A stretch of 43,598 nucleotides of DNA, taken from IMG/VR virus record IMGVR_UViG_3300005253_000059, positions 1 to 43,598 of that record. One strand, written 5' to 3'. How positions within the stretch are numbered: position 1 is the first letter of the stretch; each line of letters opens with the position of its first letter. Below are positions 12,994 through 25,009 of the stretch, piece by piece. The translations under genes and the position numbers were made by a program. The stretch is from a virus. The notes below the pieces were generated by a model that saw only the letters and a list, made by a program, of their open reading frames with translations, was not told the DNA's origin and ran no database searches.

Positions 12994-13668
12994 TTACTCA
13001 AACATTGAGACGTAATTATCGACGGCATGATCTTCGATCTTGCCCTTGAGCACAGATCGCAGCCAAGACTTGACACCCATGCGCTTGTGAAACTTGCTGC
13101 CGCACCACCACTGCAATTGCTTGGGGTGTCGATAACCCATCAGCCAGAGAGGCAAGTGGGGCACTGGATCGTTCTTGAGGTGATAGCGATAGCTCACGTT
13201 GCCTAGGATGGCGCTGTAGAGCCGCCTGAAGGTGCTGTTGCCAACCCTGGGGCAGCCAAAGGTCACCACAGCGGACGGCCTTACAGCCTGTCTGGTGAGC
13301 ATCATAGCGAATAACTCAGCAAGACCCCCGCCCAAGCTGTGGCCTGTGATGAAGACGTGACGGCCTGCAGCGTTTTGAACGTACTGCCATAGCTCAGGCC
13401 AGACCAACTCAAGCGCCATATGAAAGCCTCTGTGTACCCTGCCCCATGCTACAGGTGTCTTTCTGAATTGCAGATCAGTGATGATGTCCCTGATCTTATC
13501 TGACTCAGTACCCCTGAAGGCAAAGATGATAAAGTCTTCATCCTTGAAGCTGTAGACTTGGGTGCCGTTGTTTTCGATCAAGCTTACGCTGTAGGATGGC
13601 CAATCATCTTGCACCTGGGCAAGATCGCCATAAGCAGACTTTGACATCTTGGCTAGTGTGTTGTGCAT
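12994..13668 (-). CDS. Class 3 lipase (alpha/beta hydrolase)
   Basis: A 224-residue protein (start ATG 13668) with the full class 3 lipase signature: FAFRGTES (49-56), the nucleophile elbow GHSLGG (109-114, Ser111), PRVGN (140-144), NDPVPHLP (166-173, Asp167) and DHAVDNY (213-219, His214). The catalytic Ser-Asp-His set is complete, so it should hydrolyse acylglycerols or phospholipids. No signal peptide was seen. It follows a lipoprotein and a basic protein in what looks like a lysis cassette, so it may attack host membrane lipids. Its start overlaps the upstream stop (TGATG). Confidence 0.85.
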   Translation of the reverse strand: MHNTLAKMSKSAYGDLAQVQDDWPSYSVSLIENNGTQVYSFKDEDFIIFAFRGTESDKIRDIITDLQFRKTPVAWGRVHRGFHMALELVWPELWQYVQNAAGRHVFITGHSLGGGLAELFAMMLTRQAVRPSAVVTFGCPRVGNSTFRRLYSAILGNVSYRYHLKNDPVPHLPLWLMGYRHPKQLQWWCGSKFHKRMGVKSWLRSVLKGKIEDHAVDNYVSMFE

Positions 13669-13892
13669 CAAGATTTGATCTTTTCCAAGCGCGTACGCGT
13701 CATAGCACGAATTGTTGGATCACTTTTGAAGACCCCGCAATTAGGCTTAATACAAAACACCTTGCGGCCTTTCGACCAAACGTGTTTGCCGTCTTTGCAA
13801 GGCTTAAAGTCTGGGTCGATGTCTTTCCAGATCTTGGCCTTTACAGGCTTAGGCTTTACCTTTTTCTTTTTCTTAAACATTTTCTTAAACAT
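13668..13892 (-). CDS. Lysine-rich small protein
   Basis: A 74-residue protein whose first 20 residues are nearly all lysine, with phenylalanine and valine, then DGKHVWSKGRKVFCIKPNCG, which hints at a two-cysteine zinc site. GAGGTG precedes ATG 13892. It lies between the lipoprotein and the lipase genes. The basic N-terminus could bind membrane or nucleic acid. Function unknown. Confidence 0.55.
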   Translation of the reverse strand: MFKKMFKKKKKVKPKPVKAKIWKDIDPDFKPCKDGKHVWSKGRKVFCIKPNCGVFKSDPTIRAMTRTRLEKIKS

Positions 13893-18218: not shown

Positions 18219-18524
18219 TCATTCCTTAGAGTGGTCAGCTACCTCTATGTGTCTTTCGTTGCCATCCATGCGAAGTATGGCAAGACCTTCCTCATTGATT
18301 AAAGCTTCCCTAGGAAAGTCATCTTTCCATTCAGTAGGCTCTAACCGCACTGCACCGCAGTTGTAAACAAAGTGGATTGGTTCACCATGCACATCTTCGA
18401 CATGCACACCATTCTTTTCGATCTTTGTGACACGCAGTAGGTCACCAAGCTTTGCCATCCCTGGCGCACCAGCGCCAACCAAACGCAAGATATCACCACG
18501 TTTTACTTTTGAATAATCAATCAT
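18219..18524 (-). CDS. Small SH3-like protein, unknown
   Basis: A 101-residue protein starting MIDYSKVKRGDILRLVG (ATG 18524; AAAGGA six bases before). The KVKRGDILRLVG and GDLLRVTKIEKNGVHVEDV strands suggest a small SH3- or KOW-like barrel. The end is acidic. It overlaps the small terminase gene by eight bases. Function unknown. Confidence 0.55.
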   Translation of the reverse strand: MIDYSKVKRGDILRLVGAGAPGMAKLGDLLRVTKIEKNGVHVEDVHGEPIHFVYNCGAVRLEPTEWKDDFPREALINEEGLAILRMDGNERHIEVADHSKE

Positions 18525-19098
18525 CTTCATTCCTTTCTGTGTCAGTAGATTCAGTAGGTTCAAGTACCGTGCATTCAATCTGTTTCACTCGATCATTTGC
18601 GTTGCGCAGGTGGCGCACCAACTCTGGGTCAGACAAGGCCTTTTCAATAACAAGCCTGTCTTGCTGTAGCTCTTTGATTGATGAATCGACGCCGTGTACC
18701 AAGCGATCATTAAACTTGTCAGGCCTAGCTGCCTTGAGCAAGAACATCAGCAGTCTGTCACTGTACTCTTTGAAGGTGTCAACGCGATCACCCTGGTAAT
18801 AAACAGGATGATCAACACCATCAACAGCGCGCCTATGCGCCGCTAACTCCATGTCATCGAAAGCAATCTGTAATGCATCATCCCACTTCTGGGCAAACTC
18901 AGCATTGCGATTGCGCTCGTCATAGCAAGCACGTCTTGTTATGCCTATCTTCCTAGATGCGTAACTTACATTACCCTTAACTGCTAGGTAATAGTAAAAC
19001 TGTTCGCGCGTTGTCGCTGTGAAGTGTTGCACTGCCGAGCCTACAGGTTTCTTATCACGCGTATTATCGCGCTTTCTTTTTTTATTTTTTACTTTCAT
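18517..19098 (-). CDS. terS: Terminase small subunit
   Basis: A 193-residue protein that recognises phage DNA for packaging. The helix-turn-helix segment VKGNVSYASRKIGITRRACYDE (about 40-61) is followed by FAQKWDDALQIAFDDMELAA and RRAVDGVDHPVYYQGD, then YSDRLLMFLLKAARPDKFND. This order is characteristic of small terminases. The N-terminus is very basic (KVKNKKRKRDNTRDKK). It lies before large terminase as expected. Confidence 0.85.
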   Translation of the reverse strand: MKVKNKKRKRDNTRDKKPVGSAVQHFTATTREQFYYYLAVKGNVSYASRKIGITRRACYDERNRNAEFAQKWDDALQIAFDDMELAAHRRAVDGVDHPVYYQGDRVDTFKEYSDRLLMFLLKAARPDKFNDRLVHGVDSSIKELQQDRLVIEKALSDPELVRHLRNANDRVKQIECTVLEPTESTDTERNEDD

Positions 19099-19497
19099 TT
19101 AATCATCATCAAGAATTGCAGGCATACCAACGCCAGTTTCATCAGGTTTTAATTCTCTGGGATGAACACCTAAGCTTCGGGCTAAGGCAGCTTGACTTAT
19201 ATGTCTAGTGCGCTTTTGTTCCTTCACATTCTCAGCCATATCTTTGGCTAACTGGTTGAGTGCCTTATCTTTTTCGTTTTCTTGAAGCATTGCTTTATCG
19301 GGTGTTCTACCCCGCAAGATAACACGCTCTATGGATTCAATTTTACACTGACCATTATGGCCATTCTTTTTCTGTTTGTAATCTTTCAAAAAATCAAACA
19401 CAAGCCGCAGCACAAACAGAGCAAACAGCCCACCAGCGCCAACTTGCATCCATGTTGGTACACCAACCTCTGTTGTCTCAGCGAGTAAGTACAGCAT
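19099..19497 (-). CDS. N-terminally anchored membrane protein
   Basis: A 132-residue protein starting MLYLLAETTEVGVPTWM. A membrane segment lies at about residues 18-36 (QVGAGGLFALFVLRLVFDF), then a basic polar region and a helical C-terminus with an ALARSLGVHPRELK element that looks like a helix-turn-helix fragment. It is the first gene after the terminator at 19516 and stands before small terminase. A holin-like or membrane-tethered regulator role is possible. Confidence 0.5.
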   Translation of the reverse strand: MLYLLAETTEVGVPTWMQVGAGGLFALFVLRLVFDFLKDYKQKKNGHNGQCKIESIERVILRGRTPDKAMLQENEKDKALNQLAKDMAENVKEQKRTRHISQAALARSLGVHPRELKPDETGVGMPAILDDD

Positions 19498-19515
19498 CAA
19501 GCCTAATAGGATACT

Positions 19516-19542
19516 AAAAAGGGGCCTGCTTACGCAAGCCCC
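19516..19542 (-). terminator. Strong terminator between early and packaging blocks
   Basis: GGGGCCTGC (19521-19529), loop TTAC, GCAAGCCCC (19534-19542). On the minus strand the stem (nine pairs including one G-U, GTAA tetraloop) is followed by TTTTTAGT. It ends the replication transcript and sits just before the packaging genes. Confidence 0.85.
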
Positions 19543-19685
19543 AGGTTAGGCACCGTGTTTGGTTTCGCTCATTGGCTCACTCACGATTACTCACCCCACA
19601 TTGGCCACTGTGAGCAAGTAGGGCCTCACCACCTAAAACCGACGCACCACGTATGTCAGATGATGCGCCGGCGCTTGAATATCAA
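19543..19685. other. Intergenic stretch upstream of the packaging block
   Basis: This 143-base stretch has no gene I could support. It contains an inverted repeat (GCTCAC near 19572 and GTGAGC near 19610) and the palindrome GCGCCGGCGC at about 19670. A late promoter would be expected here but no convincing -35/-10 pair was found. Confidence 0.5.
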
Positions 19686-20078
19686 TCATTCTAACCGAAA
19701 ACCAGCCCGACGCAAACTCATCTTCAAGACAATCAGAGCAAGCTGTGCCCTTCGTTTCTTTTCTGGATCAGAAATATCATCAATCAACCGTGTGGCGATT
19801 CGTATCCCTTCCTTAAGCAACGCCTCAACCCGCGCTTTTCTATCCTCACCTAGAGCAACAGCGCCAGCCACATCACGCGCTTCCTCAGTATACTCAACCA
19901 CTTTATTCAAGGCATCATATTCTTCAGACCCAACCCCAGCCAGCGCCCTGAAGTCTCTGGCGACAGCAGCAGCTTCACTAAGCTCAGCGTGAACCACAGG
20001 CCAATCAATACCCCCGCTTGCGGAACAACCCACGGTTGTGCTCAGCCCGATAACGTACAAGATACTCAGCATCTTCAT
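19686..20078 (-). CDS. Putative lipoprotein with helical domain
   Basis: A 130-residue protein starting MKMLSILYVIGLSTTVGC; AAGGTG lies just before ATG 20078. The hydrophobic start ends at a lipobox-like TVGC (Cys18), predicting lipid attachment. The rest is helical and charged (EEYDALNKVVEYTEEARDV and KRRAQLALIVLKMSLRR). Its first 74 bases overlap the end of the CsrA-like gene in another frame. A longer reading to the right was rejected because it lacks a signal. Possible superinfection-exclusion or envelope protein, by analogy only. Confidence 0.55.
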   Translation of the reverse strand: MKMLSILYVIGLSTTVGCSASGGIDWPVVHAELSEAAAVARDFRALAGVGSEEYDALNKVVEYTEEARDVAGAVALGEDRKARVEALLKEGIRIATRLIDDISDPEKKRRAQLALIVLKMSLRRAGFRLE

Positions 20079-20391
20079 GCTTAGCACCTTGATTAACCCG
20101 GCCTTGCACTTCTTGTTTGCACACGCAGTGCGCGTGGCCATTGATGTAGGGCTCATGGTCGCGCCCATCCCAAAGCTTCTGTTTACAGATGGCACACAAT
20201 TCATTTTCATTCCTTTCGTCAGGGGTTTTGTTGTCAACCAACTCACTACGCATGATCTTAACACTACCAGGAAACTCAAAACCAATCCGCGCTTTTTCAC
20301 CGCGTATGTCACAGAGCTTTATCCGGCCTAGCTCTTTGTCGTTAACGATAATACTGATTTCTTCACCAACATACCTGCCTAATACCAACAT
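20005..20391 (-). CDS. csrA: CsrA-like RNA-binding protein with zinc-ribbon extension
   Basis: A 128-residue protein. Residues 1-53 match the CsrA/RsmA family: MLVLGRYVGE (Leu4 and Arg6 of the RNA-binding strand), DIRGEKARIGFEF and KIMRSELV (Arg48, equivalent to Arg44 of CsrA). CsrA dimers bind GGA-containing hairpins and control translation and mRNA stability. The ORF continues into CAICKQKLW and HAHCVCK, a four-cysteine zinc-ribbon-like part absent from host CsrA (about 61 residues). GAAAGGAATCGC precedes ATG 20391. The second part could be translated separately. It ends inside the next gene. Confidence 0.75.
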   Translation of the reverse strand: MLVLGRYVGEEISIIVNDKELGRIKLCDIRGEKARIGFEFPGSVKIMRSELVDNKTPDERNENELCAICKQKLWDGRDHEPYINGHAHCVCKQEVQGRVNQGAKHEDAEYLVRYRAEHNRGLFRKRGY

Positions 20392-20406
20392 TGCGATTCC
20401 TTTCGA

Positions 20407-24607: not shown

Positions 24608-25009
24608 TCACCTTTCCTTTCGTTTGATTTTCATCTTGGGTTTTGTTTCTAGTAAGCCAAAGCAAGCAGCATCCCTACCCATATGATCGCGTAGGCTAGT
24701 ATCAGCGCCGGCGCGCAGTAGTAGCTGTGCAGACGCATCATCACCAGCAGCACAGGCATTGATCAGAGGTGTATAGCCTTGGTTGTTTTGCCAGTTGACA
24801 TCAGCACCAGCCTTGATCAAAGCCTTAACTAATACGTGATTCTTTTTCCACACCGCGTAATGCAAAAACGTAGCCTGACTGCTTGACCGATGGCCTAGGA
24901 TAATGCTTGGGTGATCGCGCAGCAGTTGGTCAAACGCAAACCAATCACCACTGACAAAGGCTTGCTCAGCAGTGTCGATGATCTTTACTTGTTTGCGATT
25001 GATTCTCAT
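24608..25009 (-). CDS. Ankyrin repeat protein
   Basis: A 133-residue protein with at least three ankyrin-type repeats: SSQATFLHYAVWKKNHVLVK, a copy with GADVNWQNNQGYTPLINACAAG, and GADTSLRDHMGRDAA. Ankyrins bind other proteins and rarely have catalytic roles. The ends are basic (MRINRKQVK and KMKIKRKER). ATG 25009 overlaps the upstream stop. In phages ankyrin proteins may target host proteins, but the partner cannot be guessed here. Confidence 0.8.
   Translation of the reverse strand: MRINRKQVKIIDTAEQAFVSGDWFAFDQLLRDHPSIILGHRSSSQATFLHYAVWKKNHVLVKALIKAGADVNWQNNQGYTPLINACAAGDDASAQLLLRAGADTSLRDHMGRDAACFGLLETKPKMKIKRKER

Follow-up and report, generated by a model that had tools for sequence, protein, structure and literature searches.

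A stretch of viral DNA of 43,598 nt (IMG/VR record IMGVR_UViG_3300005253_000059; the whole stretch is called the window below) carries a csrA gene whose open reading frame continues past the CsrA domain into a Cys/His tail. With a probability of about one half, we read it as the gene of a phage CsrA-family RNA-binding protein, probably derived from Planctomycetota, the frame of which became joined to a zinc-finger-like module that was formerly a separate downstream gene. The observations behind this reading are a CsrA domain with its RNA-binding positions kept, an open frame, and a ribosome-binding site with an ATG, relic or still active, at the join. The relevant features are as follows.

20005..20391, minus strand: open reading frame of 128 aa with CsrA domain and Cys/His tail (ATG at 20391, stop ending at 20005)
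20230..20391, minus strand: CsrA domain, residues 1-54, with L4, R6 and R48 kept (Pfam, AlphaFold, Foldseek)
20398..20403, minus strand: Shine-Dalgarno sequence AAAGGA of the csrA frame (from sequence)
20211..20216, minus strand: internal Shine-Dalgarno sequence AAAGGA at the CsrA/tail join (from sequence)
20202..20204, minus strand: internal ATG, 6 nt past that AAAGGA, in a frame used by neither CsrA nor tail
20197..20199, minus strand: codon L65 (TTG), equivalent to the TerS stop in a matching junction and the sole in-frame candidate start for the tail alone
20119..20196, minus strand: zinc-finger-like segment C66-A-I-C69-x18-H88-C-V-C91 (sequence, weak PHROG match, 1.9% of shuffles)
19686..20078, minus strand: downstream gene whose product has a signal peptide and a lipobox (LSTTVGC); own AAGG-N8-ATG start

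The csrA frame starts behind CGAAAGGAATCGCA-ATG, a ribosome-binding site of the type usual for this phage. Residues 1-54 matched Pfam PF02599 with E = 9e-10 or, counting only the domain, 1.2e-10; the score of 38.8 bits exceeds the curated cut-off of 27. The PHROG profile 'CsrA-like regulator' matched with E = 2e-6. The NCBIfam equivalog models gave only weak matches below their cut-offs (TIGR00202, 32.7 against the required 70.1) and, judged by these scores, the protein is therefore a diverged member of the PF02599 family, not a CsrA equivalog. The first-pass annotation had pointed to L4, R6 and R48 as kept RNA-binding positions and had proposed a structure prediction. These positions indeed lie in a genuine CsrA domain and, together with E50, are invariant across 29 aligned viral CsrAs. 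The AlphaFold monomer model shows confident strands and a short helix over residues 1-53 (pLDDT 87-97 at residues 1-50), i.e., a CsrA fold, and the 15 best Foldseek matches in the PDB were all CsrA, RsmA or RsmE chains; the best viral match was a phage CsrA. With E. coli CsrA, Pseudomonas RsmE and B. subtilis CsrA the domain shares the fold, the RNA-binding positions (R48 corresponds to R44 of E. coli CsrA) and a start of the form MLVL-x-R-x-VGE, whereas it differs from them by G5 and Y7 instead of the usual T/S5 and K/R7, by a four-residue hairpin insertion and by the 74-residue tail.

CsrA proteins act as dimers that occupy A(N)GGA sites in mRNA leaders and so block ribosomes. As such a dimer, the window protein would bind A(N)GGA in leaders and prevent translation. 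Phage mRNAs, including that of csrA itself, are plausible targets because the phage Shine-Dalgarno sequence GAAAGGA contains a site of the A(N)GGA type; host mRNAs may be targets as well, so the protein could tune both the late genes of the phage and host messages. An ANGGA motif occurs within 30 nt upstream of 19 of 48 window genes, against about 9% expected from its overall frequency, but this excess is a by-product of the Shine-Dalgarno sequence (AAGGA) and not independent evidence of regulation.

The core domain points to an origin in Planctomycetota. It matched in 46 of 198 genomes of one class of this phylum (best E = 1.1e-8), against 21 of 249 for Pseudomonadota (best E = 3e-5) and none of 241 for Verrucomicrobiota. 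Chromosomal CsrAs of Planctomycetota (MLALTRRIGEEIVIGDPxxPLG...FDFP) have the closest cellular core, with 43% identity over 63 aa, and share the hairpin insertion and an F-x-FP motif; unlike the window protein they are 64-76 aa long and have no cysteine tail. TerL gave matches in the same class up to E = 3e-111, where the portal, MuF and protease-like genes also occur in the same order, and its best score was 373 bits in this class versus 164 bits, among the matches listed, for isolated phages; a search of IMG/VR for TerL relatives found none. Because both the CsrA core and the terminase point to Planctomycetota, the host is probably a planctomycete of that class.

The planctomycete prophage relatives (L238-L244) do not have the same csrA locus: none carries csrA beside TerS, and a plain CsrA is present in L242 alone, some 10 kb away. 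In the window phage csrA is thus an accessory gene. Among cellular sequences, one Pirellulaceae genome (G011, reached via L151) had twelve CsrA matches, several of them in long open frames. In a planctomycete region (L208, frame from base 99), CsrA continues in frame into a receiver-like domain, named by eye (LVVDDDANEREML...LLDIRMPNCDG), possibly giving a phospho-controlled CsrA; as judged from this frame, in which CsrA is followed by a response-regulator receiver, CsrA fusions with other domains do occur. Elsewhere in the window we noted a Class 3 lipase gene (12994-13671, minus strand; PF01764, E = 3e-26) in the late region between the portal and MuF/protease genes, and a small ankyrin-repeat-like protein, named by eye (24608-25009, minus strand).

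The tail contains the cysteines C66, C69, C89 and C91 and the histidines H86 and H88. The first-pass annotation had described it as a four-cysteine zinc ribbon. An in-frame Cys/His segment is present, and a motif of this kind appears in 1.9% of tail shuffles, but the separate profile searches that recovered PF02599 in the first part recovered no significant zinc-ribbon or other zinc-domain family in Pfam or NCBIfam for the second (best DUF6743, E = 0.063). The likeliest zinc set would be C66-C69-H88-C91 (CxxC-x18-HxxC), with a set of four cysteines about as probable. A PHROG of unknown function, phrog_29627, matched residues 61-96 weakly (E = 0.004-0.006; 0.0044 with the tail alone as query). 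AlphaFold confidence was low across the tail; modeled alone, it had a mean pLDDT of 60 with the zinc ligands unplaced, which is uninterpretable, and this model was rejected as structural evidence. Searches for relatives gave no homologue of the tail or the whole protein among phage records, even with E values up to 10 admitted, and none in a peptide scan of IMG/VR; plasmid matches were restricted to the CsrA part and not significant, and 298 genomes of the host class gave two weak partial matches, neither spanning the tail. Functionally, the tail may fold into a zinc-stabilized knob and give the C-terminus of CsrA one more contact with protein or RNA. In B. subtilis, FliW targets the C-terminal extension of CsrA (PMC7366521), so such a knob could add or block a partner.

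Could the tail instead be non-functional, csrA having lost its stop and reading into sequence that is non-coding in this frame? A codon score trained on the phage of the window was used to compare frames in four segments of the gene. Frame 0 was best in all four, with +30.7 for the CsrA part, +5.7 for the linker, +2.3 for residues 66-104 and +8.2 for residues 105-128. The third value is low: among true-frame windows of equal length only about 3% do no better, and stop-free wrong-frame windows reach it in about 4% of cases. Synonymous codon bias alone was rejected as an arbiter, being too weak in this genome. The last 74 nt of the frame, covering the segment of residues 105-128, overlap the lipoprotein-like gene downstream. 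This long overlap, the weak score of residues 66-104, the low model confidence and the failure to find a tail homologue would suit a meaningless read-through. On the other hand, the Cys/His spacing is infrequent in shuffles, the weak PHROG match falls on the same residues, and frame 0 leads the other frames, clearly so at residues 105-128. We regard a non-functional tail as very improbable, and the coding signal of the tail is probably real. We also rejected, as a gene, the +1 frame that leads from the internal ATG into the lipoprotein: it scores negative for coding, and the lipoprotein is already provided with a start and a signal peptide of its own. The lipoprotein-like gene lies alongside a one-TM holin-like protein that adjoins TerS (19099-20078, minus strand), and these are possible lysis genes.

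The join itself bears on whether one protein or two are made. It reads GACGAAAGGAATGAAA-ATG-AATTG, with the ATG at 20204, 8 nt ahead of the C66 codon. The minus strand of the window has 17 AAAGGA-N4-9-ATG sites, one of them at the join; of the remaining 16, 13 lie at predicted gene starts (assigned by the analyst's judgement), one at a plausible 66-aa frame and two elsewhere. A very similar arrangement marks the boundary between TerS and gene 18219 in the same genome, GACACAGAAAGGAATGAAG-ATG-ATTGA with the ATG at 18524, in which the TGA stop of TerS aligns with the TTG of L65. The near-identical boundary sequence of 18490-18545 and 20190-20220, GAAAGGAATGAARATGAWTK, suggests a reused junction element. 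Because the join copies the TerS/18219 junction and the TerS stop matches L65, csrA probably once ended at 64 codons, with another gene beginning at 20204; 64 aa is also the median length of the distinct viral CsrAs in our IMG/VR sample, among the matches listed. This layout favors either two genes or a recent, private fusion.

As the sequence is written, translation of csrA would run into the tail. To read the window protein as a single polypeptide is nevertheless unsafe, because a standard phage ribosome-binding site and an out-of-frame ATG sit at the join in the manner of TerS/18219. The first-pass annotation had named evidence for two separate proteins as a ground for giving up the fusion; such evidence was found in part, in the complete phage-type ribosome-binding site and ATG, but the frame stays open.

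The strongest competing explanation is accordingly one of two overlapping genes, a csrA of about 64-70 aa followed by a small zinc-finger gene from the ATG at 20204, the apparent fusion being a one-base contig error or a private mutation. We hold this to be a substantial possibility, although not the favored one. It would account for a complete start signal placed exactly at the join, for the copied TerS/18219 layout and for the typical length of viral CsrAs, and in L002, L007, L025, L086, L115, L166, L171 and L172 a small zinc-finger frame opens right at the csrA stop or no more than a few tens of bases from it. However, in the sequence as written the ATG and the tail are in different frames, which forces one to postulate an error or mutation, and inspection of the window, short of a systematic frameshift scan, revealed no second broken gene. 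Moreover, zinc-finger frames trail 1.5% of phage genes of any kind, so their adjacency to csrA is only weakly enriched (5 of 93 csrA genes against 15 of 969 phage genes in general, p = 0.025, three of the five from one family, among the matches listed). We make no claim of a general enrichment of zinc-finger genes after csrA, since the signal is weak and driven by one family.

The internal Shine-Dalgarno sequence also permits a third arrangement, in which one frame gives two products, the full-length fusion and the tail alone from the TTG at L65. The AAAGGA lies 11 nt before this in-frame TTG, and several long frames of the window open with TTG or GTG; yet 11 nt is a long spacing and the better placed ATG of the other frame (6 nt) would compete, which makes dual products improbable.

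The analysis also covered csrA in other viruses. That CsrA-like genes occur in some phages, as the first-pass annotation stated, is documented (PMC7366521, PMC9144972), and we found csrA in 185 phage records. A 2020 survey reported it in 30 of 2517 phages, with a 'highly variable' C-terminal extension (PMC7366521), and the CsrA of JC1 is possibly associated with the virion (PMC9144972). With the phage-borne genes of Pseudomonas F116-type phages, Burkholderia JC1 (gp47) and Vibrio phages, the window gene shares its status as an accessory csrA in a dsDNA phage (PMC7366521, PMC9144972). A generic CsrA pattern applied to an unselected IMG/VR sample returned at least 120 stretches, and 112 of the 118 that were read were CsrA. 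In contrast to the window protein, most of these measure either 55-90 aa or, where a non-zinc extension is present, 122-124 aa, among the matches listed. None of 93 distinct CsrAs with downstream sequence had a CxxC tail, and eight of the 93 reach 100 aa with other extensions, again among the matches listed. The phage CsrAs of 122-124 aa (L021, L047, L054 and similar) share a second domain of about 65 aa, which is conserved but not of a zinc type and probably corresponds to that of Pseudomonas RsmM. PHROG 14733 was considered as a CsrA family and rejected. The window also has uracil-DNA-glycosylase-like, Cas4-like nuclease and PolA genes, 14 kb from its csrA, and csrA lies near relatives of these genes in L012, L014, L033, L039 and L113.

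Targeted IMG/VR scans for CsrA followed by CxxC (ATG starts, CxxC within about 5-28 residues of the domain) found in-frame fusions, besides the window, only in L012 (78 aa, tail motif CDSCHGAGCEGC) and in L167/L174 (100 aa, tail motif CxHG..CxxC). Like the window protein, these phage frames place a Cys/His motif directly after CsrA, but they are shorter, use other motifs, have no in-frame start at the join and carry clearly independent tails. The tails of L167 and L174 differ with dN 0.076 and dS 0.75. Since the join of L167/L174 lacks an in-frame start and their tail is under purifying selection, CsrA-zinc fusions exist in phages as selected proteins. Although L164 also has a CxxC, its sequence does not resemble a normal CsrA. 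L167 is Mu-like in appearance, with a large transposase-like and an AAA-type protein beside csrA.

The architecture was found in none of the bacterial CsrAs examined, which bears out the first-pass view that the segment is absent from bacterial CsrA. A CsrA-plus-CxxC pattern run on 84,980 genomes (ATGCTN starts, one spacing) gave 26 stretches and no in-frame bacterial fusion, and the L167-type tail had no convincing match in 369 genomes of one class. The fusion had been called unfamiliar, and our literature search found no paper on a CsrA-zinc fusion; it is not confined to the window, though, as a zinc-type tail on CsrA occurs in two further viral lineages. Zinc tails on phage CsrAs are rare, whereas csrA genes themselves are ordinary in phages. 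A broader idea, that phages have equipped CsrA with zinc-binding tails time and again (three or more unrelated cases: the window, L012 and L167/L174), the module choosing new RNA or protein partners or blocking host control, seems to us rather unlikely.

That phages carry csrA was already known; the zinc tail is a new variation, with real doubt whether the window copy is one protein. Phage csrA is widespread, and the literature searched gave no account of its role. A CsrA with a zinc module, if real, would offer a handle on partner choice. It would also place csrA in planctomycete viruses, a poorly studied group whose hosts can hold a dozen CsrA copies. If two genes are present instead, the locus would show how fusions start, with a small gene that overlaps the csrA stop losing its boundary.
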